From Liolophura sinensis (taxonomy: Eukaryota > Mollusca > Polyplacophora > Chitonida > Chitonidae), in contig NC_088300.1 in the NCBI RefSeq assembly GCF_032854445.1, forward strand, positions 63,772,984-63,836,983: a stretch of 64,000 nt of DNA. Direction: 5' to 3'. Below the pieces are notes generated by a model. That model saw only the letters and a list, made by a program, of their open reading frames with translations. It did no database searches and was not told the origin of the DNA. The translations under genes and the position numbers were made by a program. Positions 9,550 through 62,900 of the stretch are shown here, piece after piece. Position 1 is the stretch's first letter. Every line of letters begins with the position of its first letter.

Positions 9550-12500
9550 GTAAGTACCAAGAAACTAATTACTTTCTGGTTGACAACCGCCATATTTGTA
9601 TACTATGTGTCAGTATTTCCGGTCAGAAGGGTACGGAGAGCTTTAGATAAATCAGTGGGGATATAATTAGGAAAAGCACTGACTAAAATATATGAACCCG
9701 TCCATTGCACAATTTTAATGTTGCCTTTTTAATCTGAACCCCGTCTAATTACTTTTCATTAATAGCAGCAAACACGCCATACTTGCCGTTCTGTTTATTC
9801 CTGCACCCTTAAATGTCGGTTCACACGATGCATCTGTTCTTGCGAAATACGTTGCATCGTGTAAACATATACAATTGTGTGAAATATGGTCTGCAAAGCA
9901 TCCACCGCTGTTGGAATCTGTCATCATTTGATACACCGCTGAAGATTTCAGCACATTTATTTAATTGTTTATTTATTTGATTGGTATTTTATGCCGTATT
10001 GAAGAATATTCCACTTATGCGAAGGCGGCCAGCATTATGGTTAGAGGAAACCACGCAGGGCTCGCTGGAAATCCACGACCATCTGCAAGTTGCTGGCAGA
10101 ATTTCCCACATGCTACCGGAGAGGAGGAAGCCAGCATGAGTTGGCCTTGAACTCACAGTGACTGCTTTGGTGAGAGGCTTCAGAGTCATTTCACCGCGCT
10201 GGCACGCTACCCAGTTGGTCAAGCAGAATTCTGCAAGCACAAGTAAACCACAAAAATAACTTTGCTTTGGAGAGCATCATTCGTTACCAAAAAACATTCA
10301 AAGCAAATCTTCATTATCATTACAAATGAGGGTAAACTAGGAGAAAGCAAAACCGTATGAAACTGAGTCAAATGTCTGCAGCCAGATTCTAATCAAATAT
10401 TTTCCAGACATTTTGTGAAGAAGAATTTTACCGGTATCATTTTAAGTGAATTGTCCCAAGTCTTGCACGTCAACTACCAGTTCTTACATGTGTAAGTCGA
10501 CAATCTGACCCAGTGTTATGATCCACAGTGGTACAATGATAACAACATGACCTAGTGCTCTAAACAACACTTGTGCCAGACGCCTATATGATCCAGTATT
10601 CTGAACAACACATGTGCATGGATGACAACATAATCCTGTGATCTGAACAACACATGTTCCAGAATGACCACAAATCCTGCATATTATATAGTGTTTTAGA
10701 GAACACGAGTGACAAGATGAAACTGACATCTTCCGTTCTGAATAAGACGTAGGTGACGATATGAAGGTGTGATTAGTATTCTGAACAACACGTGAGTGTG
10801 GGAGTGGAGTTATGATCAAGTATTCTTAACATGTGAGTGTAGGAATGCAGCTGTGATCAAGTATTCTGAATAACATGTGAGTGTTTGGATGAAGTTGTGA
10901 TCGAGCATTCTGAACAACATGTGAGTGTGGGAATGAAGTTGTGATTAAGTATTCTTAACAACAGGTGAGTGTAAAGAAAACAGTTGTGATCAAGTATTCT
11001 GAAAAATGTGTGAGTGTGGGAGTGGAGTCATGATCAAGTATTCTGAACAACATGTGAGTGTGGGAATGAAGTTGTGATCAGGTATTCTGAACAACGTGTG
11101 AGTGTGGGAATGAAGTTGTCATCAAGTATTCTTCACAACAGGTGAGTGTAGGAATACAGTTGTAATCAGGTATTTTCAACAACGCGTGAGTGTAGGGATG
11201 ACGTTGTGATCAAATATTCTAAAAAAAAAACATAGATATAGACATGTTCTGGTATTCTGAACAACCCAATTATAATGATAATGATATAACGACAGCATCT
11301 AAATGGCGATTAACCTGTGATACACTGTTTTGGACACCAGGTTTACTAGGAAGACGTTAAAGCTAAGAAATTTGATCGACCATTACTGCGAGGATAATAT
11401 ATACATCATACGACACAATGATTGCTGCAAGAAAAGACTTTAAGGCTTGATTGGATGGAGAGCAAGACGATACCACCCGAAGGTAATCTGCACAAGACAG
11501 TCACCTAGAGAGTGTCTTTGCGTGGGAATCTGTACTGTACTCTTGTTCAGATGGCAGTTTTCTTCACACTACATTGTCCTGACAGTAATATGACGACAGA
11601 GTGGGAATGGCTAGATGAACCATCATTGTGGAGAGAACACAACCACTTAGAGGACGACGCGTACAAGTGGGTATCTGTACAGCCAAGTAACTGAGATCAC
11701 AGTAGGCGTATGACCAAGTTTTCTGACCATCACAGTAAGTAAAAAGACAGAAGTGGTATGGCGATATTTGGATCACTGACTAGATCACACAACATAGACG
11801 TTATGATCGGTATTCAAAACGCGTATCGCCAATATATGGCTAAGTAACATGGCGGTTAGGGTAATTAATAGTCATGCATCCACGGAGACAACATTATCCC
11901 ATGATGATATGAAACGTACTGTATCATACAAAAGTACATTTGCTTTGATGGTGATATGATCAGTGCAATCTTAGAATGATAATGGAAACTCGGTTGTTAA
12001 TATCTGTACAAGGAGGAACAACGCTGTTACTGTTGATAAAATCGTGACAGGGTTTCTATAGAAAGAAATTTACTGTAGACACGATAGTGCGATACGGCTG
12101 AGACATTGGCGAATATTTGGAACAATACATCTACTGTTGACATGCATGACCTATTCAAGTTGAGATGCCGGAACAGCATATTATACTGTTGATGTATACT
12201 AGCGATATGGATGATCCATGTGCATTGTTAACCTCATAAAGCAATAAATTACCAATAAAAAGTTAATTATCATTGAGATATAACGAATTTGGAAGAAATT
12301 ATCACTGTGAAGAACATGTCGCACTCGTCTGCCACAACATGTATCGGTTAGCCCAATGTAGGCGGTTATAATCTAGAATGAGTTATGAAGTTATGGTCCC
12401 AGGTCCCCTCACGCATAGTTCTCCACGCCTACAGCATACCGCCACACGTAGGTAGGAAAGACATGAAGGTGGTTGAAAATGAACAAAATTTGTTGATTTT

Positions 12501-15500: not shown

Positions 15501-18500
15501 CGCCCCCTCTCTCCTCTCCGTAGCATAAAACTATTCTTCTTTCTTTATTAGATACGTCCGCATAAATAGTATTAGGAATACTATCTCTCACTTCATTACC
15601 TCCCATTTAGAATCTTTCTCTGTTAGAAGCGCTGATGGTTTTGAACAAACTGACATAAGGCAGATGATAAATTGGGTGCATTTTATGTTATCTTTTATGT
15701 GCTGTAGAATTTTTTAGGGAAGAATTCTTACTCATTGTTATTGTTAATTTGGTGTTTAACGCTGTCCTAGAGGTTTTTACAAATACACAAAGGCGGAATA
15801 GTGTAGGCCAAAGTGCCCACGGACCAGTTGTTCTATAGTGTATTAGCTAATACTGGTATTAAGTCATGTCTCATATTTAAAATTTTAGCCAAACTTAGCA
15901 GTCAATGGAGTTCTCCAAGCTCAAGGTATAACAACAGCAGATTTAGTTATATTTAATATGCTGGTACTCATTTTTTTAGGCTAAGTGCACAATTGAAGAC
16001 GGGCCTCCGTGGCTCAGTTGGTTAGCGCGCTAGCGCAGCGTAATGACCCAGGAGCCTCTCACCAATGCGGTCGCTGTGAGTTCAAGTCCAGCTCATGCTG
16101 GCTTCCTCTCCGGCTGTAAGTGGGAAGGTCTTCCAGCAACCTGCGGATGGTCGTGGGTTTCCCCAGGGCCCTGCCCGGTTTCCACCCACCATAATGCTAG
16201 CCGCCGTCGTATAAGCGAAATATTCTTGAGTACGGCGTAAAACACCAATCGAATAAATAAATAAATAAACAATTGAAGAGTTGGTTTAAAGTATGTCTGG
16301 TATTAAGTGTTAAACCAGGTTTGAACAACCAGGTCCAGAGCAATTGACCACTGTTTGATAGGAACCTGACATATCTCCTGATTTAGGATCGATGCTGAAC
16401 TATGGGTATAACATCCTACAACTACATGTAAAGTCTGCTTAATTCAATGTTAACATCGGCCGTAATCTTATTTTGATATGAAGTTGTTTTTAAATTTGAA
16501 TAAGTCAGTGGAATCTGGAACCGGACAATGCCAATGGCAATGAAAATTGTGGGGCCATAAATGAACAGACGGGCTTCAGCGATGAGGATTGTGCTCGGAA
16601 AATCGGCTTCATCTGTGAAATAAATCGTAAGTTTATCACCACAGGATATAGTTTTCCTTTTTTAGTCACAAAGGAGACCGACTAAGAAAACAGAATCATG
16701 CTAATGAGGGTCAGTTTTACGAAGCAGTTACAACAAACGTCTGCTCTAGCTCAAATGACTGTCACAACGTGTAGTTAAAAGAAATGTCACCATAGTCAAT
16801 TGGCTAGACGCAGCGCTGCGACATATTTGGAAAGGGACCCCCTGAGCTACCCTGAATTCAGACAAATTCACGAAAAGTATGTCTTTTGTATGAGCATCCT
16901 GAGGCAAAGGGTATTAACAGATTTGAAGTATATTTATCCGGGAAATGTCGAATGTCTGCTCCGAGCATAAAGAAGTCAGCTTAGAAAGGAAATATCCTTA
17001 GAGAGCTATTAATACAGACGACTTCATCAAGAGTTCTTTTAACACACAAATGGGTAAAAGACTCCTTTGTGTGTATGTATGTGTGTGTGTGTGTTTTTGT
17101 TTTCTACGTGTAGGAAAATCTCCTCTTTCTGAAATTCGAAAATAGACGCATAGATCTTTCCATATTCATAGTTATATTCCACGGTTTAATTTGCTTTGGT
17201 CGACCGCCATAGGCAAGTATTTACATTATTTCGGGTTTAAAAAATTAGTCCCATCTCAATCACGCGAAATACGATTCGTCCGTGCCGTCTTTAATTTTTG
17301 TATCTTTATACATGTATAGAACTGTTACTTTAACGGTACATGTTGTAGAAGAGGGCTGTCCGTTCGACTGGCTGATCGCGAATGACCAATGTTTTTACAT
17401 CAGTAACACCTACAACATCACCCAGCTAATGACATGGAAACAGGCCAATGCCAAATGCGCATCAATGGCAAGCGGGGGAAGGTTGGCTGATTTAAGCAAC
17501 TATGACGCACAAGTACGTACAACAATCAAGAATAAATGTGATATTTCAACAGCAAAATTGTCTTCAAGCATTTTGCCGGACTGGTAATTGACCATTGAAC
17601 CGCCACTCTGTACCGGGCAATAAATAACACAAGAATTGAGGCTAAGGCTATTTGTAATGTAAGCCAAAATTTACACCAACATTACCAGACGCAACAATGA
17701 AAACTGTACATAAGTGGACTATTTTACTGTTGAGCGTAGATGACATCAAGAGTAATATTTTTTTCCAGTTAACTTTATCTCTCGATGGAGTTTTTGTAAA
17801 GCGCATTACATTCCCACTAATGCATACAAAAAGCTATTCTGCATGCAGTTATATGACTTGAAAAAAAATAGGCACAGATCTTTATCATTATCAGAACATT
17901 ATCAGTATGGATGAAAACTCCCTTTTATTATTATTAATGTAATTATGCTGATGGTATCTTCATTTTATGTTATCTCTTTGAATTCATACAGCATATTGTT
18001 CTGTTTCAAGTTATGCCGCTAACCAGATGTATATACAAAAACGGTGAGGAATTTCAGCATCTTTGTGAGCACGTGCTTATTATTTTCCAGGACTATTTAA
18101 AGTCAGTACTTCCGGAGCAAACGCAAACCACTCTACCGTGGTGGACGTCTCTCAACCGGAAAAGTAATCAGTGGTACTGGGGCACAACGCCAGCTCAGAA
18201 CGTTGAGGATCTGTAAGTGTCACACTTTGACTAAATCTTCCGTGTTTACCTTCCGTGTGCAATTATGGTCGTATTCAAATGCAACGATGACAATTTATTT
18301 TCAGAGAACATGTTCTAAACTAAAGAGTGGCTGAGGGGGTTAGAACGCCAGCGCGGCGCAATGACCCAGAAGTCTCCCACTTTAGCGGTCGCCGTGTGTT
18401 CAGGTCCAGCTCATACTGTCTTCATTTTCCGTTCGTACGGACAACCTGGGGATTGTCGTGGGTTTCCCACTGGGTTCTGTCCGGTTTCCTCCCGCCATAA

Positions 18501-24500: not shown

Positions 24501-27500
24501 TGTCAATAAGAGTTTTGTGGCTTATACCATACTGGATTTCGTAGGAGGGGGATACACCACAGTGTTTTGGTGTGCGCGACGCATTTCCACTAGTGAAAAG
24601 AAGCTTGCAACTCTATTGTCTCATCATGTTCGCTAATAGACAGATAGCAAATGAATAGAAGGAATAACCATAAATCTCCATGACCACATGCCCAGCGTAT
24701 TTTGTCCTGATTTTTCCTTATTCATTAACATTTTTTGAAATATACTTACGCCAGCTGTTTTTTTGCCAAATCCTCTTTTCCTGTCTCATAACTGAGATTA
24801 ATTCCTGTAGAAACAACAGTTGCTTGCCTTTTCGTCATACCTTAAATGAAATGAAGCCCTTAAATTACAGTACATTCAAATTGTGAAACCATGTCTATAG
24901 CGAAATAACCTTTGACAATTGTTGGTGGAATAATTATTAAATCTGCGGCGCCGACAATTAATCACGCTGAAGAAGTCAATAGATATTGGTAACAATTTCA
25001 ATTTTCATGTACGTTTAAAATTATGTAGAGCGAAGCAAAGTGGATGAAGATAACATGCTTGATAGAGAATTATGGACTCTTGTGTTCAATAAGTCCGAAT
25101 CCATATTCTTAATATTATTTGCCGGACTTCATGCTTTATGCTGTGTGGAAATGTGTTGGGACCTGAAAATGCTCTGAAAGTTATTCAGCGTACTTCTCAA
25201 ATGACAGCGTCGAATATCGTCAAGAAAGGAAACGTCAAAATAGGCTAGCACCCATCTATCTACCCTCTGAAAATGAATAATATATCAAGATAGAAGCTTA
25301 GAATATCAATAAATTTACTTCAAATTCACAATAGCGGTGACTTCCCCTGTAAAGTCATTGTAGTCTTGCACACAGACTATCAAGTGAATTTACCAATAAT
25401 AAAAGATAGAATGTCATAAATTCGACCTACCGACAGACCCACCTACAGACCTACCGATAGACCCATCCATAGACCCACCGACAGACCCACCGACAAGCGT
25501 GCAGAGCAAACATACATGTATGCTAATCATGTTATATGATGAAATGAATTGATTTGGCTGACTTAAATGACATTGTGTGATAAAAGGCCTCAGATATAGC
25601 GGATAGATTAGGGTGGTTATTCTCTATGTTCCACTATTATTCCAGGAAAAGGTTGCCCAGGAAATTGGACGGCTTTTGGACAGTCCTGTTACTTTTTCGG
25701 CCCATTAACAGCTCGTGGAGGGAAAATGAACTGGTGGATGGCGCGACGAGTTTGCAGGAATATGGCAGAGCCTTTGGCTGGCTCTCTTCTCGCGGTCGAC
25801 ACTCCGGAAGAATTGGTGGGTACAGAAAAAAACCGAGGGCCCGGTAGTTGAAAATTGTCCTATAATACGAGTTTTAAGTTCAAGCCAAATTTTAAATTGT
25901 GTACTTAAACCCTCAAAAACTGTGTAGTATATTTCAATGTATATGATCTAAATCTACCAGTGTTACATTTGAGCCTTGGACAACTACATTGACAGCTTTG
26001 TTTCGCTAAAGTCTGACATATATAAAATGACATAATACGGGTATTAGTTAATACACTTTTGAACAAACGGCCCGTGATCAAAACTTTGGTAATTGCAGGA
26101 AATTAAAACAGTCATGTAATTAGCTGTTCGCTTCTTGCCAAAATCAGAAGAGACAGGTGATGAGATATTCAACATCATACAGTATAATACTAAAACTCGT
26201 ATTGTGTGTCGCTAGTACGTCAGATTACTGATCATATGTAGGCGCCCCGTAATAAGCGCAGTTTAAGCTATAATCTTATTTTACAGGTCAGGTGATACAA
26301 GAAGGATCCAATAGATAGTACCTTGTCAGCGCAAATTATGCGTTAATGATGAATATGGAACTCGGCATCAGCGAGTTGACGCGTGATTGATAATAACGCT
26401 GAACAGTCCGGATCATAACTACACTAGCACTAGTACTGTAAGAGATACCGGCGTTAGTTTTTGATTTCAAAACGGTCGAATTTCACTCCCAAGATATCTT
26501 TGCATGCAACGTGACCGGATGCTATTTCAGTTCATTATCCGCTGCAGACAGCGGATCTAGTTTAAGTGAGAACACATAAATGAAACAAGGTGCTAGTTAA
26601 TTTAGAAGTCTTCTCGCGTATAATATTTCAGTTTCTCGCGAAAAGTAATATAGATGACTTTAGGCGTAATATATAGCGACAATAACCTGTGCCTCGCATA
26701 TTTACACAGCAGGACTGTGATATTAAAATTGAATTTGTCAGGTGTGAATGGTGATAGTTATACGATGCCAATAGGTACACTGCTTGAGTCCTTCGATGCT
26801 TTAAAAATGATTGGAGTTGCCTCATAATTTATGTTGAATATATATCCCTTCCCAAGAAAAGGAAACGCCTAGGTGGCACATGTTGCGACACCAGATGCTG
26901 AGATGAACGAAAACCGATTTATGACTTTGTGCCATTACTAAATGAGCCTCTGATGATTCTTTCACGATTACTGACCTTTCCCACTTTTTCATTGTGTGTT
27001 TTTGCTTAAATTGACAGAGTACTAAATTATGTCTTTCGATGGTGGATGGTGTGAAATGTCACGTTTATTATTATTTTTTGTTGTCGTTGTTTTAATATTA
27101 TTTTTATTTTTGTTTGTTTGTTTGTTTGTTTGTTTTTTTGTTTGTTTTTTTTTTTCCTCTTCTGTTTTGCTTCTACATTTGTTGAGGATTGTAAGGTAAA
27201 TGTGTCTGTGACATTTTTGTCATACAGACAAGGATATATATAATTTTGTGACTGATTTTTGGTTTCTAGGCGTTTGTCAACTCTCAGTTGACCGCTCGTC
27301 AGGACATGAGCCTGTTTCATTGGACTGGTCTGAACGACGTGGCTGCTGAGGGGACCTTAGTCTACGACTCATATGACGTCCTACCGCGTCTAGATATAAT
27401 GTAAGTGATCTGTCGTATCGACTCGTCGGGTTGAATTGGAAGAAGGAAAAGAAACCTATAGTAGCATTCGACAAATCACTTCGTGTTAACGTTGTTTATG

Positions 27501-39600: not shown

Positions 39601-42600
39601 GGTTCATGGTTCATATTTAGGTGTTTTTGATAAATTTTTTTTGATTGGTGTTTTACGCCGTGCGTTGTTGATCATGATATGTGAATGATACATATTCAAG
39701 TGACGAATTAAGATTAAAATGTTTACAAGCGGAAATTTTAGAATAGGCCTAACCTGTTTTACACCACTAGATAATTAGTTAGGCTACCGAACCCACTTAA
39801 GCGCGTACATCACTATTTCGTTTAGTACAGTTTGTGTAACTAGATTTGTCCGCATTTGTATGGCAATTCATACCGAGTAATAATAAATAAATAAACATTA
39901 AACAAAATGTCTTGTCCGTCTAGGTCTTGGGGAAATGAGCCAAACAACGCCAAGGGGAATGAGAACTGTGCTGCAGTTAATGAACAAATGACCTTCACCG
40001 ATGAATCGTGTGACCAGAAATATGGCTACCTCTGTGAGGTTATGCGTACGTGACACGGCATAAACATATATACCACAAATTTAAAACACAGCACTATCAC
40101 AGTGACCTCCAGCTTGTAACACAGCTCAACCATGTTTACTCCTTGTTCTCCTTACAGTATACATAAAATCCTTAACATTAATAATCTTTTCATTCTTTTG
40201 TTTCATGTAAACACTTGCATATCAAGTTCCAAGCAGATATACCTGAAATCCGTAGTGCAGCACTACCATGTCCCAAGCATGTTATACAGTTGTATGTCAC
40301 ACGTGCATGTGTATACCTATAGTTGTGTGATTCCAAATGAACAAATATATGAGGAATCCAGGATTGGTCTGTGTGTTATGCATGTGTGTTAGGGGTTTCT
40401 GTTGAAGACACGTGGAGAAACGCATGACTGTGCTGTGTGTTATACAAGCGTTGGTCCATGTGTGTGTGTGTGTGTGGGAGGGGGGGGTGTTATGCGTGTA
40501 TGGCTCAATTTGCATAGTACTGAGTTTCATGTTGAATAAAAGTGGGGATTGTACTGTGATTTGTTTCCGGATGACGGTCATGTTTGACTGACAAATGTTT
40601 GTAATATAATATATGTTTGTGATTGGTGCATGTTTGTAATTAACAGATGTTTGTTTCTGACACATGTTTATAGCTATCACTCGTAGGTGACACGTTTGTA
40701 ACTGGCACATGATTATGACTGATGTATTTTTATGATTGACAAGTACTTGTAGTCAACACGTTTATAACGAGGTTTCATGTCATTCTTTTATAACTTGCAT
40801 ATATTTGTAACTGACACGTGGTTGTGACTGACACGTTTGTAATTGACATGTGCTTATAATTAACACGTTTGTAACTGAGAACATGTTTGTAACTTGCGCG
40901 TATTTATATTGACACATGCTTGTAACTGACACATGTTTATAACTGTCATTTGGTTGTGGCTGATACATTCTTGTAAATGACACATATTGCAGAGGAAGGA
41001 TGTCCGTTGGGTTTCCTCATCAGTGATGACAGATGTCTGTATGTCAGTAACACGCTAAATGCCTCGGAGTTGATGACAAAACAACAGGCCCAGGCACGCT
41101 GTAAGAGTATGGGAGGCAACATACAGCTAGCCAACCTTGAGAATCAGGCCAACATCGTAAGTCATACAAGATTATAAGATTATACAGAATTCGTAACACT
41201 GTTTCTTTTACTGTTTGCATTTATTTGTTTATTTATTTGATTGGTGTTTTCCGCCGTACTCAAGAATATTTCACTTATACGACGCCGGCCAGCATTATGG
41301 TGAGAGAAAACCGGCAAGAGCCCTGGGGAAACCTACGACCATCCACAGGTTGCTGCAGGCCTTCCCACGTACAGCTGGAGAGGAAATCAGCATGCGCCAG
41401 AACTCACAGTCACCGCATTGGTGAACGGGTTGTTTACATTATTGATTGCGTGCACTAACATCAGCAAAGAAGCGAAAGTAAGTTTCTTACCCTTGTTTTA
41501 GCATGTAAATGGTTAAACAGGAGTAACTTAGACACTCTCTCTGGCAATCTCTTGGCTAAGCAAAACAAGGTAAAAAAAATTGCAGCGACGATAAAAAAAA
41601 TAGTAGGAATCTTTTGTGTCTGGCAGCAAAACAAAAATATGGGATATAACAACACAATAAATCTTCCTTGTAAAGTTCTAAATATATCCTTTTTGGTATT
41701 TGATGCTTCATGTCGCCTTACATATAGGACTACCTGAAGACCGTTTTACCGGAAAACGCGCAGAACACCCTACCCTGGTGGGTTAGTGCCACGAAGACTG
41801 GTGGTCAGTGGATGTGGGACAATGGCTCACCTGCTCAGCTGTAAGCACATTGTGATTTTAGTTGCAGCTAATTCGCAGCTCTACATTCCCTTGGTCGATC
41901 GTTCTTTCCTTCGCGGTCAGATGACAAAGTGGCTGTCAAATTTTTGACATTTTATCTTTTAATGTTGGTGTCTTTTCATTTTGCGAGAGCCGTTCAGTTA
42001 AATCTGTTCTTGCTTTCTTTCTCAGTTATATTTGTATGAATATGACGTTTTTCACAAAATCAAGTTTTAACCGTCAACTTTTAAATAGACCTACTACCGT
42101 TTCAGTCCATTGCAGTCCATGTTTGAGGAGGTAACAGAACTTCCCTGACCTGTTTTGTGGAGAACTGTGTCTTTGTTCCCCCTCTTTTCGATTAGTCTGG
42201 TTTAGACGATGAAACTTAATAATAAACCCTTTTTGGTATATGTACTTTTAACATCTGTCATTTACTTAAATAGTAGAGTAATCTATGTATATAAATCTCT
42301 GAATGAAAATCATTAACTCATAGTAGTCGCCAGTCGCAGCTGTTTGACTCTTTACTTCTGTACTTTCAAGATATACCTGTTTTACTATTGGCGTGCCGTT
42401 TATTCTACAGTTAAATATAAATATCCTGATAATGACAACACACTATGATGATGATCTCATCACCTGTGGATTTTATTTATAGTTGAAAGGGGCTCACCAG
42501 ACCTGTGTAACAGGGAAAAAAACTTCGATAACAATTCAAGTGATCATTATTAAACAAAGCTAATATTGTTATTCAAGTAGAGGAAGTTGCAAGACTAGTT

Positions 42601-45600
42601 TCTCTTTTCAGAGGGTTTCAAATGGAATAATGAACGAATGACAGCATAAGACCACTTTCCTAGAGTATTTACCTTCCTTACATGATTCATGTACAGTTCA
42701 TTTCCTGGTAGGCCTATAGATTAAATTTTGTTAAATGCATTTACTACACAGGACATGGGCACAAGAGCCTAACAACTTGAATGGTGGAGAAAGATGTGCA
42801 ATTTTTGTCAATGGGAAGTTCGCTGATAAAGCCTGCAATTCACTATTTAATTATGTATGCAAGAGAACAGACGGTTCAGGTAGGGTGGCAATTATTTCAT
42901 GGGGAACGTCATATGGTTAAGGTACCTGCCTTTCAAAGGCAAGAACGCACGAGGTTGGGATTCAAACACGACCTTGAACAGGAAATATGCTAGACCACTG
43001 CCAAAGATTACTCCACACATCGGCCATCAGTTGTGAAAGTGAAAATTCTTGAACACGAAAATAAATTTAACGAATTGTTTCACAGAATCTAGCAAACGTC
43101 ACTTTCTCGTTTATATCCTGTGGGTCATTAGCGAATATATTAACCTTCATATACTGTGTGGCTTTAAATAAGACCTCCAGCAAGAAACTGGAAGAAATTG
43201 CATCCTTATCCATAAGAACGAAAAACGGAAAAGTAGACCACCTTCTTTCAGATACAGAGATTATAATGTGTCATTTAAAAGTGGTTTTAATTAATGCAGT
43301 AATTTTGCTGTTTGAAATTGAACGTCTTGCCCAGACAGTATAATCCGAACCGGTGATAATAGTATAAGACTGACACGTCACTATTACATGACATAAGCAA
43401 GTCTTCAGCAAAAAATAAATAAACTGCTATACATTTGTTTCAGTTCCTCAGACGCCTTACGACGGTAAGTTTGGCTGCGGTTCTTGGACAAGAGCCGGAA
43501 AGAAATGTTATTTCTTCCAAACAATGTTTGGTGACACTCAAGATGGCGCCCGACAGAGATGTCTTAATGTCGGGGCTGATCTCCTCAAGATAGACTCCCT
43601 AGACGAGCAGGTAGGTCATTTACTCCACTACTTGCTCGTCTGTCAAACGTCTACAATCTACAGTTATTTACTACGTATTATGAAACCTTTGTTATTTTTT
43701 TTATAAATATGAAGATTAACAAAATGCAATCTGTTTTTATAATTATTATTGATTACTTATACACCTAAGTGATTTACGAGTTTGTCACGAACTATTCCCA
43801 GTTCCGTTACTCCATAATATTAGACAATAAAATTTGTGTCAAAAAATCCCTACATAACTTCACATGTTATGGGCGTCTAACTACAAATTCTTGCGGGCAT
43901 GGTGTCTAGGGTTGGAATCCAGCTGTCGCTGGGTTGCCTTCAGTTCTCCGCGAGAGGGTTTAGACATTTGCATGATGAAGGTAAATGGTTTTATTTCAGC
44001 TCCGCATTAGCACTATAGTCTTCCTTTAAGAGAAATATGGGCCCCCGTTGGCTCCAATGCTTAAAGCCCTGGCTAACTGCCACTGTCAGGCCATTAACCA
44101 GTGAGTTCACTCGCTCGAATCCAGCTCTTGCTGCTTCAGCTGGGGCGAAGTGCAATGATTTACTAAGAGCACTCTCGTTTTCTCTACACGTAAACCTGGC
44201 AAATAAGACAAAAGTGAGAATAAATATAATGAAGAAAAATATTGTTGAGTACATGGTAAAACCCAATAATTCTAAACAAAATGTCTTAATTCACAAATTA
44301 TTGTAATAGTTTGCCTTTTTGTTTTAGGACTGGATAGACAAAATTGCGACGTATTACACGACGACGTACTGGACACAGCTTAGATCCTCGGGAGGTGGGC
44401 CTTGGGCGTATGCTGATGGCAGCCAACCTTCACAGGATGTCTTGTAAGCATCAAGTTCTGTATTCAGACCACATTTCATAAATGTTTACTGACTGTGTAC
44501 ATGTACAACCGAATGGTTGGGAGTGGGAGGAATCAGGGTGTCAATGAGGAGCTAAAAAAGGTGGGACAATTCCAATGATTGACAACCACAACGGATATTT
44601 GATCGACGGATCCTTGTCGAAACGCAAATAGATCACTAGTTGTTGATCTAATCACAATTACAGTCTAATCACTATTACAGGGTTTGGAACCAGGAGCCGA
44701 ATGATTATATGGGAATTGAGGACTGTGTGGCGATCACCGCTAAGTTAACCTGGAATGATCAGCCTTGTGGTCAGAATGGAGGATACATCTGCGAGGCTCC
44801 TTCTACAGGTGAGGTCGCCTCTATAGGTGAGGCCCCCTCTACAGGTGAGGTGCTCTGTAGAGGTGAGTTAACCTCTCCAGACGAGATACTTTCTACAAGT
44901 CAGGTCTCATCTACAGAGTAGTCTGTATAATTTTGGGCAACAAAAAAAAAGAAAGAAAAAACAGAAACAAATGAGCTGAGCGCATGATTTCGCCTGTCTG
45001 CAGGCAATCTGAATCTTGTGAGATCCTTGTCGTCTACATCAACAAATCAGCGTCATGTGAAATGTCATGTGAGCACATACAAAATGGAAGCTATGACACA
45101 AATTTTGGGTGTCATATTAACTTGAACGTATCGTGTGTCGCATGACCTTGAAAGTATCATGTGACCATCATTCACGGTTGCAGTCTTCAAAAATGCACAA
45201 CAAATGTTGCCCGTGTTCCAGATCATTCGACACCGGGTTCAGAAAATCCGGTTTTCGGCAACAAATGTTGTTCGTGTGCGCTAGGCTATAGGTCAAGGGG
45301 TTTTCAATGAACCTGGTGCATGTCGATGGTTCTGTCTGGGCTCTCCGGTTTCCTCCACCCAGAAATCTGGCCACCGTCATAAAACTAAAAATTCTAAAGC
45401 GTTGAAACTTTTAGAACACACCATTAAACACCAATCCAGTAAATAACTGAAATACCCATACTACTAAAATCGCCACAAACGAATGTCTGTTGAATGAAGG
45501 AAGCAGACAGACACATCCCTAAAGTGTTTTGCAAGAACCGTGTGATTTTGTTTATTTGGTGCCCTTGCTTGTTCAGTCGCCTAGAATGTGTCCTCGGCAC

Positions 45601-51632: not shown

Positions 51633-54600
51633 CTTGAAAGCCGAAAAGCATTCATTATTACCACACTTCACTGACTATAAACTACATCCACCGTATATGT
51701 TTCAAAGTTTCATAAATTTATCAAACATTATCTGGAAATTCTTCGTCTGACATGAAACTGAAAGCTGTATATCCTACAATACGTCTTTTACATTTTAGAA
51801 ATAATTTACAGTATTCATTTCGGAGGCGTATTTTCACAGAATTGAAACACAAACTTTATGAATTCAAACCTCCTGACTTCTAACGTTGCAGTGAAATAAG
51901 ATGGAGCTATGCATCGAAAGATGAGCTGCCTTACCTTGCACGGGTTTCTCGCAGATAAAGTTGTGTTTAATGTTACAGTCTTGGTCATCGTACCTGGCAC
52001 CACTCATAATCACTGCACAGTTGGCATCTTGTCCACCGTTTGGCTCAGTGTTCCATTGTCTGTTAAAGCATGTAGGAAACTATATGTCACCCAACACATC
52101 ATCATTACGTTTGTTCTCTGTCTGCTGACACAGCAAGCGGAAAACTACATGTAACACATCATCTTACCATTACACTATTCCACTGTGTGATGACACGGCA
52201 AGCGGAAAACTACATATAACATATCAAATTACCATTAGATTGTTCCGTTGTCTGGTGACACTGCAAGCGAAAAACTACATGTAACACATCATATTACCAT
52301 TAGGCTGTTCCACTGTCTGGTGACACGGCAAGCGGAAAACTACATGTAACACATCATATTACCATTAGGCTGTTCCACTGTCTGGTGACACGGCAAGCGG
52401 AAAACTAAATGTAACACATCATATTACCATTAGGCTGTTCTACTGTCTGGTTACACGGCAAGCAGAAAATTCATTCTATTGCGCAAAGGCTCTTGCACTT
52501 CGACAATTTCAATTTTTGGTCATTCGTACTAACTTTTTGCCTTGTTAATCATGCAAGGTTAACAATGAACTAAATGTCATGTATGTTCTATGAATTTTAC
52601 GTTCAGGAACTAAATCGAAACTGAATTTATCGTAATTTCATAGTATGACAGGACTTACATGAGCGACATATCAGGAGGATTATTAAAATCTGTATCGTAT
52701 GTCCACAGCCCTTCGTCAAAACGGTCATTTAGGCCAGTCCAGAAGGCGGTGGCATCGGGACCAAAACCCATTACGTTCTGTATCACAAATTCCTGGTCGA
52801 GAGTAAAGAGATTGAGTTAGCCAGTGTTAGGATTTCATGAAGGGCGGCACGAATCACTACTAATAAAAATGGAATTTAACATATCGGTAACGCCATGATT
52901 GTCTTTCAAATTGGTTCAAGCAATACAATTAATACAATTTGAAATAAAAATGTCAGTGCTGATAACATTGCATGGTCTGGTGTTTAATACAATTTGAAAT
53001 AAAAATGTCAGTGCTGATATCATAAGGGATTTTTCTCCCAGTTTCTAAATTGATGTTAAAATTATATTTTTTTCTGGAATATCAAGCCAATAAGAATTAA
53101 ATAGCCACAGGAACTTTTACATTGTAAATTATTGGTTGGTATATGTACCCTGCGGATATGATAATTTAAAAACTATTTATTGTATTCACTAATCCGTCCT
53201 GGCTCGTTGGCTAATGTGGTCGCACTTTTTACTCCACACACTTCGGTGCCCTCTACTCATAAACCTGACAGCCCTTTAAGTGAAAACGTCATAATCCGGG
53301 CGTTTATCATCTATCAATCAAACACTAATTGGTTCACAAGATACCTGCATGTCAATTATGATATAAAAGAATTCATGTCTGATTCTCTAAAACAAGTCCA
53401 CCAGTAACCAACCTTGAATGTAGATGTGAGTATCAATAACAGTTTAGAAATCATGCAGATTAAAGCAGTCACTGACCTGTTCAAGAGACAGACAGGATAG
53501 CCTGTTTCATTAAACGGTACACTAACCTGTTCAGTGCGGCTGCTTAGAGCTACAAGAAAGCCATTGGCCGGTAAAGCCAGGTCTCGGCAGCGATCACGGG
53601 CCTCGTACCACGTGAGAGAGGTGTTTTCGCTATTCCCAGGTTGAAAGAAGTAACAGGCGGCATCTTGGTCAATCCACGTGCTGGGACAGGGCGAATCTGT
53701 AATGTGAGGAAGACATGGTCATGAAGCCTTGCTATGTTGCACGACTGGAAAACGTAGTCACGACAAGAACGTATAAAACGGCCCCAATCCTTGAAGGAAA
53801 GTACAATCATAACACACGATGAGAAAATAACGGTCACAATACAAGGAGCAAAAAAAACAGACATAATGCTAACGACACACGATAAGAAACCACTGTCACA
53901 ACATTTGTCCACAAAAATTTAGAACTCATACTAGAAACCATAAGTACACTCAATCAGTTTCGCATGATCAGAACCCACGCTAAGATCTCCCGCTTGAAGC
54001 ACACGATCAGGTTTTGACACTAAGTCCTCGCGGCCAGAACACGCCATCAAATAAGATCTCATGAGATCAGAACCCATGCACTGTCAGAACTCACACTAAG
54101 AACCACATCCTTCCAGAAGATTATAAAAATAAAAATTATAATCCATTTTTGACACACCTTCGGGATACGCCTCGCAGATATAGCCGGTTTTGAATCCACA
54201 GCGTCCATCATTGAACACACCGTCCGGCATCAACATGGCGCAGTCCTCTTTGCCAGCCACATCATTCGGTTCGGCGTTCCATTGCCTTGTAAAAGTAACA
54301 TTTTATCGATTTTAAACAGGTTTGGTCTGAATCTTATTCAAGGTGATCTGAATTTTACGTTTCAAAATCAAAGCATGTCAGGATGTTGACCTTTCAAGAA
54401 ATCCCTGATGTGCTGAGCTATTAAAGAGCTATGTTCTTTTAACTATGACATTTGTAGAGAAACTATTACGCTCAGGCAATGGTCATTTAGATGCTTATAC
54501 CGAACTGGAAACTCCTTTGAACAATATTTCGTTCCAGGGTATTGGTGATAATCAATCGGAACTTCCACCTGTTCGCGCTATGAAAGCCAGAAAGAAATTT

Positions 54601-57600
54601 ACTTGTTGGTTGTTGGCTCTTTTAAATTGCTCAAAATAAATGCTGAAAATATATTATTGAAGACTTTGACCTTTGTAAGGGAATGATTACCATTTTTCTC
54701 ATAAAAGTGGAGGACAATTATTCTGGATAGGGCCATAAAGCAGTCCTACCACGCAGCTGTTAAGAAAACTTACACTACGTCTGGCTTCAGTGCTGTACCG
54801 TCCGCCCATACCCAGGTACCTTCTGTGCTCTGATCGTTCAGCCCTGACCAGTAAGCCTGCCAATCGATGGAGCTGAGAACCCACGACACCCACGCCTGGA
54901 AGGCGGGGGAAATGAAGGGAAATGCAGTACAGTGACAGCGAGCGCCGAGAAGAAACCGAATAGATACTATGAACAACAGTAAACTGACAATGACAGTGAA
55001 GCAGATACCGAATAGATACGGAGAACAATGGTTCACTGATAGTGAGAGTGGAGCAGATACCGAATAGATACGATGAACAATGGTTCACTGATAGTGAGAG
55101 TGGAGCAGAAACTGCATAGATACAATAAACAATGGTAAACTGGCAGTGAGAGTGGAGCAGATACCGAATAGATACAGAGAACAATGGTTCGCTGACAGTG
55201 AGAATGGAGCAGATACCGAATAGATACAGAGAACAATGGTTCACTGATAGTGAGAGTGGAGCAGATACCGAATAGATACGGTGAACAATGGTTCACTGAT
55301 AGTGAGAGTGGAGCAGATACCGAATAGATACAGAGAACAATGGTTCACTGATAGTGAGAGTGGAGCAGATACCGAATAGATACGGTGAACAATGGTTCAC
55401 TGATAGTGAGAGTGGAGCAGATACCGAATAGATACGGTGAACAATGGTTCACTGATAGTGAGAGTGGAGCAGATACCGAATAGATACGGTAAACAATGGT
55501 TCACTGATAGTGAGAGTGGAGCAGATACCGAATAGATACGGTGAACAATGGTTCACTGATAGTGATTGTGGAGCAGATACCGAATAGATACGGTGAACAA
55601 TGGTTCACTGACAGTGAGAGTGGCGCAGATACTGAATAGATGCGTTGAACAATGATAAACTGGCAGTGAGAGTGGAGCAGATACCGAATAGATACGGAGA
55701 ACAATGGTTCACTGATAGTGAGAGTGGAGCAGATACCGAATAGATACGGTGAACAATGGTTCACTGATAGTGAGAGTGGAGCAGATACCGAACAGATACG
55801 GTGAACAATGGTTCACTGATAGTGAGAGTGGAGCAGAAACTGCATAGATACAATAAACAATGGTAAACTGGCAGTGAGAGTGGAGCAGATACCGAATAGA
55901 TACAGAGAACAATGGTTCAGTGAGAGTGGAGCAGATACTGAATAGATGCGTTGAACAATGATAAACTGGCAGTGAGAGTGGAGCAGATACCGAACAGACA
56001 CTCTAAAAAATGGTTCAGTGACAGTGAGAATGGAGCAGAAACAACGATACATGGACAGTGGGACCGAACAGATAACAGTACGAGGCACCGTGGTAAAGTG
56101 ACAGTAGGAATCCAGGGAATTCGTTAAAATATTTGAACAACAATTGTTGAATTCGTTAAATGGGATTGAATTGATGTTAACCTGTCCTATAAACGGTTTC
56201 CATCCGCATGCATACAAGTGATAGTGCGAAACCTCTATTATGATTTACTCCTTTGCTGGACAATGGGTATTGGTCTGCCTTAAGAATAGTTACACACTGA
56301 TCAATCACCTACACTGTAGACCACAGATAGTTTACACAGCCAAATGTACCCACAGTCAGAACTTTTTTCAATAAATTATGCCACCCTTTGAGGTACATGT
56401 ATAATTATATTCCGTTGATAACGCAGCCCATTTTACACACTTAATACAAGCAAAGAAAACATCCACTCACCGCTTCATCCGGATTTTCTGTTTTTAGGAA
56501 ATCCCCTCCGACCTCTAGACAGGTCTGGCGGCCATCTGACCAAGTGGCCTTGTAGGTTGACTCAAAGTAGTAACATTTATGTCCGGCCCTCATCCATGAC
56601 CGGTCACATCCAAATATCCCAACCTCCGCGTTTTGTGGAACTGCAGTAAACCAAACCAATACAGTTAGTGGTAGTGATAATTGCCTGTCTTTGGCAAGCC
56701 AATGTCTAAAGTATCAATTTATTTATTTATTTATTTATTTGTTTGGTGGTTAACGCTGTACACAAGAATTTTTCATTTATATTACGGTGGTCAAGTTTAT
56801 GGGTGAAGGAAACCCATGTAAACTACAGCTCTTCACTATGTACCTGACAAGCCTGCTGATTCAAAACCACAGCCCATACAGGGTGAGCTGGATTCGAACA
56901 CCCGACCGCACTGGTCCACAGCCTGATGGTTGTATCGAGCCAACGCTTTAACTACCTGAGCCAGCGAGAGTCCCATTTAAAATATTAAAGGCAAAGAAAA
57001 CACTAAATGAAGTATGTATCAGATGAAATACCATTAAAAACAGTTTAGGAAATTAGTTGGATTTATTTTTTTTAACAATTGTTTAACCTAGTAAAATGCA
57101 TTTGAATATATTATTCTGTGGTGGAGTTTCCTGTCCACAATGGGACCAGTGACGTCAGAAAAGGTTTTTGCTACTTAACACACATTAGACTGCTACATTT
57201 CGTCATTGAAAATGCATATACATATACTTCTAGGAATACATGTGCTGATTTGACCTTGAAACGAATTATTTTAGGCAAAAAGTATGGATGTGACTTAAAT
57301 GATACCTACTGGGTCACAACAGACCCCCGTAGAATCGGATCGTTTAACACAATTTTACTCGGTTAGAAATATTCTAACAAATACCAAAGAATTCCATCTG
57401 TTTTCCTGGACAGTTTTAATGGTCCTTCACAGGATCCAAGTACTGATGTCTGCATCGCGTGTTTACCCCATTACTACATCGTAGCAAAACCTTAAAGGCA
57501 TTGCAGACACTGAACACCATAAAACCATGAGATTAGCAACATTGGCTGAATCTAATGTAACACTCCCGCATATGGCCTAAGTATTGGTTACAAAATACGC

Positions 57601-59934: not shown

Positions 59935-62900
59935 CACCTAGGAGGCCAATGAACTGAGAGAAAATCTTGACATGGACCCATTAAGGCCATAAATGAAAAC
60001 CCTATCCATCTCCATCATTTAAAGCAGAAAGGATCTACAGCATCACTCTTGATTTGTTGTAATACAAAAGATAAATACACGGTACTCAAAAGTGAACGAA
60101 AACGAACAAAAAACAAAGGAACAAATATAGCTACAATTTATCAGCACATTTTTTAACAGAGACAAGCTAAAACCATCTCATACTTCCAGAATAACCTCCC
60201 TGGTGCTCATGTTGAAATAAAGGCAGAGTTGTTAATTGGTATTATTACTTCGACATTGATGTCATGCGGAATAATTTATTTATTTATTTATTTATTTATC
60301 AATTTGTGTTTTACGGTGGGAGCAAAGCTGAATGATTAACTGAAAAGCTGAAGTCATAGAACTCTTAGACAGAGAATTTGCCTTACAGAAGAATAGTTCC
60401 AAGGGACATTATGAAAGTTCGTATTACCCTGTTTCAGCGGCATTTCGCAGATAAACCCCAGTTTCTGGGCACAGTCCTCATCGCTGAACGTTAACTGGGT
60501 GTTGACGGCTCCGCAATTCTCTTTACCATTGGCGTTGTCAGGTTCTACGTTCCATTTTCTGAAATATTAACATTGGCAACAAGGACCAGGTTCATAAGTT
60601 TCCGTAAGCGTTCCCAAATATCTAAAATAAATTTTCAGTAAAGCAAACCAATATTCTGCCAACTTAGCACAGCTTTTTCCCACATATAATTAATTACTGA
60701 ACATTATCTCTTCGAAATTTTATTGGAGAGTAAAATGTATCGATCAGAAAAACTGTGGGTCTATATGTACCTCATTAGTAGAATTTCCTATCACTAAATT
60801 TGTAGTGTACTAGTTGTCTTCCAAAAGCCTATCTTTATAAATAAGTGTTTGATCCTGATGAAACTTTATTTAACCCAGGATATAACTGGTTTGAGTTAAT
60901 TATTAATAGATAAGACTGTGAATGTGAGACAGCATTATATGAACCGGCTGATTGTAGATGCTTTCTTTACACACCCATGATCTGAATGATCTGAATCTCT
61001 TCGGTCTATTCCAGACTGCTAATGAACTAATTACGTGAATGACTTCGACATAATACTGATCTTTCCTGTACCCCTATTAATCTATGTGCAATAATTACAT
61101 TAAAGGCACGTCAACACTATATTGACCTTCACGGTACCATATATCTACCTCAAAGTACTGGACATTTACTTACATATTTAGCACAACCATCTACCTCAGG
61201 TTACTGGGTAATTGTTACATTAATGGCGTATATCGACAAAATGTTAATCTTTCAAGTACAACTATCTGCCTCGTTGTATTAGACAAGACTTACCTTGGTG
61301 CCGTATCGACACCATATTGATCTTTTCCAGTACAACTATTTCCCTCGTTGTATTAGACAAGACTTACATTAATACCACATCCACGCCATATTAATGTGTC
61401 CAATATAATTATCTACCTTGTTGTATTAGACAAGATTTACATTAATGATACATATTAACACCATATTGATATTTCCAGTACAACTAGCGACCTCCTTGCA
61501 TTACATTAATGCCATGTCGACACCACATTAATCTTTCCCATACAACTATCTTTTGTATTGTATTGTAACTCTTTGTATTGGACAACAGTTACATTAATGA
61601 CATATCCACCCTAGATCTTCCAGTACCATTCTCTACTCGTTGTGCTAGACAAGACTTACGTTAATGACATATCGAAACCATACAGATCTTTCTCATATAA
61701 CTGTCTACCTCGGTGTATTATGCAAGACTTAAATGACATATCCACATTAGATATTTCCAGTACAACTACCCACCTCGCTGAATCTGCGGATGGTCGTGGG
61801 TTTTCCCCGGCCTTTGCCCGGTTTCCTCCCAAAATAATGCTGATCTCCATCGTATAAGTCAAATATTCTTCATAACGGCGTAAAACATAAATCACATAAA
61901 TTAATCTACCTCGTTGTTTTAGACAAGACTTACATTAATGACATATCCACACCACACTAGATATTTCCAGTACCACTATCTACCTCGATATATTAGACAA
62001 CACTTCCATTAATGACATATCGATCCTTGATCTTTCAAGCACAACTATCTAACTCGCTGTATTAGACAACACTTACATTAATGACATATCGACACCATAC
62101 TGATCTTTCCAGTACCAGTAGCTTTCCTGGCGCACTAAGGCCGTCCAGAAGCCGTCAGTTGGGTATACATCCAGTTCATCTGACAAAAAGTCCTGTATTT
62201 CAAGAGCAACAAGATGGTCATGTGCGTGCTATATGCTACACTATATAACTATACACAGAAAACTGATATTCAAAAGAGTGCGATGATTTGATAAAAGATT
62301 TGAACGATAACACAGTAAACATTTGCAAAACCGGGGAAGCTATGTTTTTGTTTATGATTGAAGTGGTATTTAGATTTTTTTTGATATTTGGATTCGATCA
62401 TAGCAATCTGGTAAATTCTGATAGTTTGAGAAGAACATAGGCCCTATATTTGCAGACATGACCCACCACATCATCCTGGGTATCGATAACCAGTAGAGTT
62501 GCTTGCTGCTCGTTACACTCGGTAACCGCCTCTTCAAAGGTTATCTTCTCCGAGGTAACGAACAGGTAACATTTGCTGTTTGCATCCACCCAGTTGGCGG
62601 GACATTGGTTTCCCTCCATAGGCGTTAATTCTCTGTACTGGCCCAAACACGTACCTGTAGGTTGACCCAGTTTAAATGTAAATTATTTAAAATGCAAGAA
62701 AGAAGCTTTATTGACACGATAATACTTGGCATAACCAAATAAATTCATTAGAAATGTATATTTATCCAGCCATGGAAAACCATGTGTTTAAAACTTAGGT
62801 CAGCCGTGTAGAAGTGTTGGCAATATCACAGTCGGCTGTTGCACTTGAGACAGGGTAGTAAGAAGGGACGGCTCTAAAATTATAAAAAAACAACATCCGG

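Follow-up and report, generated by a model that had tools for sequence, protein, structure and literature searches.

The minisatellite in the intron behind exon 3 of gene C CTLD1, within a cluster of C-type lectin genes in the analysed window (64,000 nucleotides of Liolophura sinensis DNA), consists of the end of that exon, its donor and the start of the intron, copied in tandem. Judged by its sequence features the array is of the 'mirage' kind described for amphioxus, and such junction-seeded repeats are already known. Very probably it is a mirage-type minisatellite that was amplified from the exon 3/donor segment, is now decayed and mostly neutral, and leaves the authentic donor as the one used.

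Exon 3 of gene C CTLD1 (62077-62192, minus strand) is 116 bp long and terminates in phase 2 (AT|GTAAGT), with the authentic donor directly after base 62077. It joins its authentic acceptor partner, exon 4 (60428-60558, minus strand, entered at 60558), in phase, giving an ordinary lectin reading (...YGVDMSLI-KWNVEPDN...). Iterative local alignment of a 75-bp junction unit produced 13 units on the minus strand, running from 62118, inside the exon, to 60995. Unit 1 (62044-62118, minus strand) holds the exon 3 end, the authentic donor and the first intron bases; the intronic part (60995-62076, minus strand) covers the remainder of unit 1 and all of units 2-13, plus a weak partial fourteenth unit (61175-61143, E 0.048 with the unit profile) and an inserted SINE-like fragment (61784-61905, plus strand), which lies between units 3 and 4 and is 81% identical to the copy at 16141-16268. 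The unit measures about 73 bp, with some 39-42 bp of exon, the donor GTAAGT and ca. 27 bp of intron. TRF calls the array separately at 61215-61503 (period 74) and at 61904-62095 (period 69). A profile of units 2-13, searched against the 149 bases of exon 3 end and intron start, matched the junction with an E-value of 7e-24, which applies to that search only. The initial annotation had described a repeat of exon 3 end, donor and intron whose first unit is the true junction. The 13-unit alignment and TRF bear this out, the authentic donor lies within unit 1, and the profile match shows that the array does include the exon 3 end; the estimate of about 12 units rises to 13-14, and the proposed extent of 61020-62107 is corrected to the limits given above, with the SINE-like interruption.

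The array and the inserted fragment together make up 1,082 of the 1,518 bases of the intron between exons 3 and 4, which is the longest of the 11 such introns measured (237-1518 bases). Mean pairwise identity between units is 0.705 (range 0.50-0.90), and identity to unit 1 falls along the array, from 0.84 in unit 2 and 0.90 in unit 3 to 0.68 in unit 13 (Spearman -0.77, p 0.003). The inserted fragment belongs to an abundant SINE-like repeat with a AAATAAATAAAT tail, found at 16141-16268 and in 21 further matches (E up to 1e-3, some of them short) that are 70-94% identical to the copy at 16141. A repeat with the tail ACGGCGTAAAACACC is, we assume, common in molluscs. A 26-base probe from the repeat matched nothing in collections of prokaryotic and viral contigs, which are uninformative for an animal.

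The array stands in a family of paralogous domains. Exon profiles run against the six-frame readings of the window recovered 12 exon 2, 12 exon 3 and 12 exon 4 cores of CTLDs; 32 of the 36 cores had served as seeds and four were found by the profiles (exon 3 of A3, A4 and B1, and exon 4 of B1), while four further weak exon 4 matches (E 0.07-0.91) were excluded from the count. By core order the 12 CTLDs are three four-domain C-type lectin genes: A (13.8-31.8 kb, plus strand), B (38.1-48.6 kb, plus strand) and C (63.07 to 51.9 kb, minus strand). All five spliced domains that were submitted to Pfam (C1-C4 and B3, of the twelve) matched PF00059 (Lectin_C), gene C CTLD1 with an E-value of 7e-18 and 65.8 bits against a curated cut-off of 22.6. 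In a protein tree the groupings A2/B2/C2, A3/B3/C3 and A4/B4 are well supported and the placement of C1 and C4 is not resolved. With splice sites picked by eye at the aligned places, exon phases are identical in all 12 domains. Exon 3 of gene A CTLD4 (27270-27400) lacks the GT donor present in the other eleven domains, and its end was placed by hand because there is no GT at the aligned donor place.

The family also bears on the order of events. In every domain but A4 (11 of 12), the exon 3 donor falls at one and the same place of the alignment, with the codon phase unchanged. C1 exon 3 is also matched, up to residue 38 of 39, by a profile made from nine other exon 3 peptides (E 9e-12, one sequence searched); exon 3 thus predates the array, which among the twelve CTLDs of the window is borne by C1 exon 3 alone. 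At the DNA level the closest of the ten other exon 3 ends compared is that of C4, with 20 of 30 bases identical. Searching the window with the unit profile revealed no second array of the gene C unit: outside the array only weak matches at 28190-28162 (E 0.019) and 52672-52647 (E 0.04, the paralogous C4 exon 3 end) were obtained, the rest having E-values of at least 0.97. Most likely, then, the array derives from the exon 3 junction and not the reverse.

Most downstream copies keep a GT, as had been claimed: it is retained in 11 of the 13 aligned units and lost in two, and the full GTAAGT occurs six times (units 1, 3, 5, 9 and 10, and the partial unit at 61174). Donors in the intron were scored with a matrix built from the other 35 family donors. 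Seven GT sites in the C1 intron region reach at least the family median, namely the authentic donor, five copies of it and one unrelated site at 61774, so that the decoy donors of the initial annotation do exist. Its coding isoforms fared differently, as read-through from exon 3 gives DMSLM followed by TAA, inside the first GTAAGT. No open frame results from any of the 25 alternative donors in the C1 intron that score above the weakest family donor. The 72 candidate cassette exons (20-250 bases, acceptors filtered for pyrimidines) included none that was both in frame and open. The ladder, as far as tested, would add no protein and at most waste transcripts, since the TAA lies in the first donor and neither donors nor cassettes are open.

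We regard the array, its origin from the exon and the reading frames as demonstrated, and propose the following course of events. In gene C CTLD1, an ancestral segment across exon 3 and its 5' splice site would have been duplicated in tandem and amplified downstream, presumably via slippage or unequal exchange, after which the intronic copies, freed from coding constraint, would have decayed. The SINE-like insertion probably split the array later. Splicing most likely relies on the authentic upstream donor; if a downstream copy were chosen instead, or the intron retained, the in-frame TAA within the first donor would result in a truncated lectin message, which would probably be degraded. The array would then be mostly neutral and at worst cost the gene some of its output. 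Counting against neutrality, the exon part of the units is kept better than the intron part, and the donor hexamer better still: in units 2-13, cells identical to unit 1 amount to 378 of 468, 213 of 293 and 62 of 69, respectively. This could hint at selection or at conversion with the exon. Selection on the donor core is unproven, however, and there is no clear sign of it, since 7 of 70 hexamer windows, the donor hexamer itself included, are as conserved or more so. A further point against the neutral reading is the downstream donor at 61294 (AAG|GTAAGT), which outscores the authentic donor (11.06 versus 9.51).

A different fate of a copied junction is seen in gene B, where TRF identifies an 18-bp x 3.7 array (44793-44880, plus strand) comprising the end of CTLD3 exon 4 and its donor. 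The four donors at 44808, 44826, 44844 and 44862 score 10.03, 8.64, 10.03 and 10.31 bits. When joined to CTLD4 exon 2, all four keep the frame open, and every step adds six residues, which is the kind of ladder that the initial annotation had looked for in gene C. The two genes display two outcomes of junction copying in one small region, truncating copies in gene C, as tested, and in-frame copies in gene B. Conceivably, junction minisatellites are a working source of isoforms in this lectin family, the gene B ladder lengthening the linker between CTLD3 and CTLD4 and the gene C array representing a decayed, non-productive end; we consider this unlikely. The gene B repeat frame also stays open to a stop near 44921, and the 18-bp repeat might be no more than coding sequence of a message ending at that point. 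Should the gene B donors be used, a single event, the tandem duplication of an exon end, would give a tandem-domain lectin a graded series of linker lengths. At the other end of CTLD3 exon 4, the 3' end of the intron carries a 17-bp x 2 duplication (44647-44680, plus strand) that reaches up to the acceptor.

For gene C, the decoys might instead serve dosage control: they would compete with the authentic donor, the TAA-bearing fraction of messages would be degraded, and the copy number would tune lectin output. The density of strong sites agrees with this idea, since the seven GT sites that reach or exceed the family median, the authentic donor among them, fall within a 1.5-kb intron region, whereas the plus strand between 13.6 and 60.5 kb has 0.92 such sites per kb, and every alternative donor tested truncates the message. 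Also, the title of Lievers et al. 2001, as cited in PMC2630376, links the 31-bp VNTR of human CBS to reduced CBS activity. However, the donor hexamer lacks special conservation, the GT is gone in 2 of 13 units and even the weakest family donor outscores those of units 6, 7 and 11, while published mirages are said in the available text of their descriptions to leave regular splicing undisturbed (PMC3087553, PMC3902484). Dosage control appears quite improbable, and mostly neutral decay is the reading retained here.

A mechanism tied to transcription or to splice-site motifs could also favour splice junctions as sites of tandem duplication in this genome. Besides the gene C CTLD1 array, two arrays in the window span a junction, and another reaches up to an acceptor. 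The second junction-spanning array of gene C (52025-52469, minus strand, 65-bp x 5.4) runs through the acceptor into CTLD4 exon 4, which starts at 52059. Its TRF extent covers only 52118-52469, and the junction is reached only through extension by alignment, which weakens the case: the 65-bp consensus aligns on to 52025 with a score of 64 (maximum of 36 in 500 shuffles), and the exon part alone gives a modest p of 0.011. Four random-placement tests gave no significant excess of junction-crossing arrays in the window (P 0.073-0.68). The most favourable one, with alignment-extended arrays and placements on at least two junctions rejected, counted 3 observed against 1.10 expected (P 0.073), whereas the other three gave P 0.68, 0.41 and 0.42.

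Local similarity around the junctions led to the same result. Five donors topped the ranking of 72 junctions (sites picked by eye, without the A4 exon 3 donor, for which none was found, and with the C1 exon 1 donor), and their excess over controls, from which positions in microsatellites were excluded, was not significant; enrichment of duplications at junctions was rejected. Four of 36 donors reach a score of 26, as do 0.78% of the 5513 control positions outside arrays, a control biased in favour of enrichment because arrays were removed from the control alone. When all 5910 control positions are taken, 6.1% reach that score and the binomial P for 4 of 36 donors is 0.18; at scores of at least 24 the same control gives P 0.25. 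None of the 36 acceptors reaches 26, and shifted donor positions give 0-5 of 35-36. A preference for junctions is very unlikely. Small duplications at donors occur as well: the one at gene C CTLD4 exon 2 consists of the donor and a single downstream copy (53459-53527, minus strand; GAACAG|GTTAGTG, with the copy GAACAG|GTCAGTG 50 bp on). A match of 13 bases behind the A1 exon 2 donor, and a weaker one at C2 exon 2, were not counted as arrays.

Other minisatellites occur in the window. A 52-bp x 21 array (54947-56039) lies shortly before gene C CTLD3 exon 3, within the preceding intron; this array and degenerate repeats at 40585-40985 are located upstream of acceptors, with no junction demonstrated in the unit, and were set aside. 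A 44-bp x 10.5 minisatellite at 10761-11220 carries a donor-like GTGAGT in many units, and the exon profiles found no lectin exon near it.

That the minisatellite is the older element, part of it having been recruited as the end of an exon (exonisation), was rejected on the family's conserved exon 3 donor and is extremely improbable: unit-to-unit alignment by itself is silent on the ancestral copy, but 11 of the 12 paralogous domains share the aligned position and the phase of the donor, the unit profile matches no other array in the window, and the CTLD4 exon 3 end is 20/30 identical.

Amplified junctions have been met elsewhere, and the initial annotation's view that such seeding is unusual was only partly right, since amphioxus mirages and a human VNTR are already of this build. 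Tandem duplication that carries splice signals is also the basis of the model of Rogers, in which introns are gained by duplication of AG/GT-containing segments (cited in PMC3087553), and a case of intron gain by tandem duplication is reported for the potato RdRp gene (PMC4974935). Unlike in that model, no new intron has formed in gene C, as the C1 domain has three exons like its paralogs.

Human CBS provides two parallels (PMC2630376, as far as the available text goes). The 31-bp VNTR, c.1444_1467+7(16_21), is present in 16-21 copies, and by its name the unit contains 24 exon and 7 intron bases, i.e. an exon end plus donor, as in gene C. The CBS unit is 31 bp, invariable in length and polymorphic in people, whereas the lectin unit is ca. 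73 bp with a mean identity of 0.705. The second parallel, 844ins68, duplicates the intron 7/exon 8 junction in tandem and likewise offers the spliceosome more than one site. It differs from the gene C array in being a single 68-bp duplication at the other end of an intron, with the more distal of the two sites favoured, and that distal preference counts against a neutral reading of the gene C array.

The closest relatives are the mirages of amphioxus, described as minisatellite-like duplications of exon-intron boundaries in Adh3, troponin C, the globins BflGb6 and BflGb9, and PGBD5 (PMC3087553, PMC3902484). In the available text of both papers they come from cephalochordates, with units of 10-72 bp (Adh3), 60 and 108 bp (PGBD5) and 150-160 bp (globins), and it is noted that copies could act as cryptic sites (PMC3087553), a point that speaks against the neutral reading of the gene C array. 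Like the arrays of the window, they involve a 5' or 3' boundary, and many but not all copies keep AG/GT (PMC3087553, PMC3902484). The gene C unit spans an exon-intron boundary, is of minisatellite size at about 73 bp, and many, not all, of its copies retain the splice signal. It differs in its host, a C-type lectin gene, and in having 13 degenerate units as compared to 3 and 6 in two BflGb6 haplotypes. The repeat type described for amphioxus would thereby extend to another gene family and possibly to another taxon.
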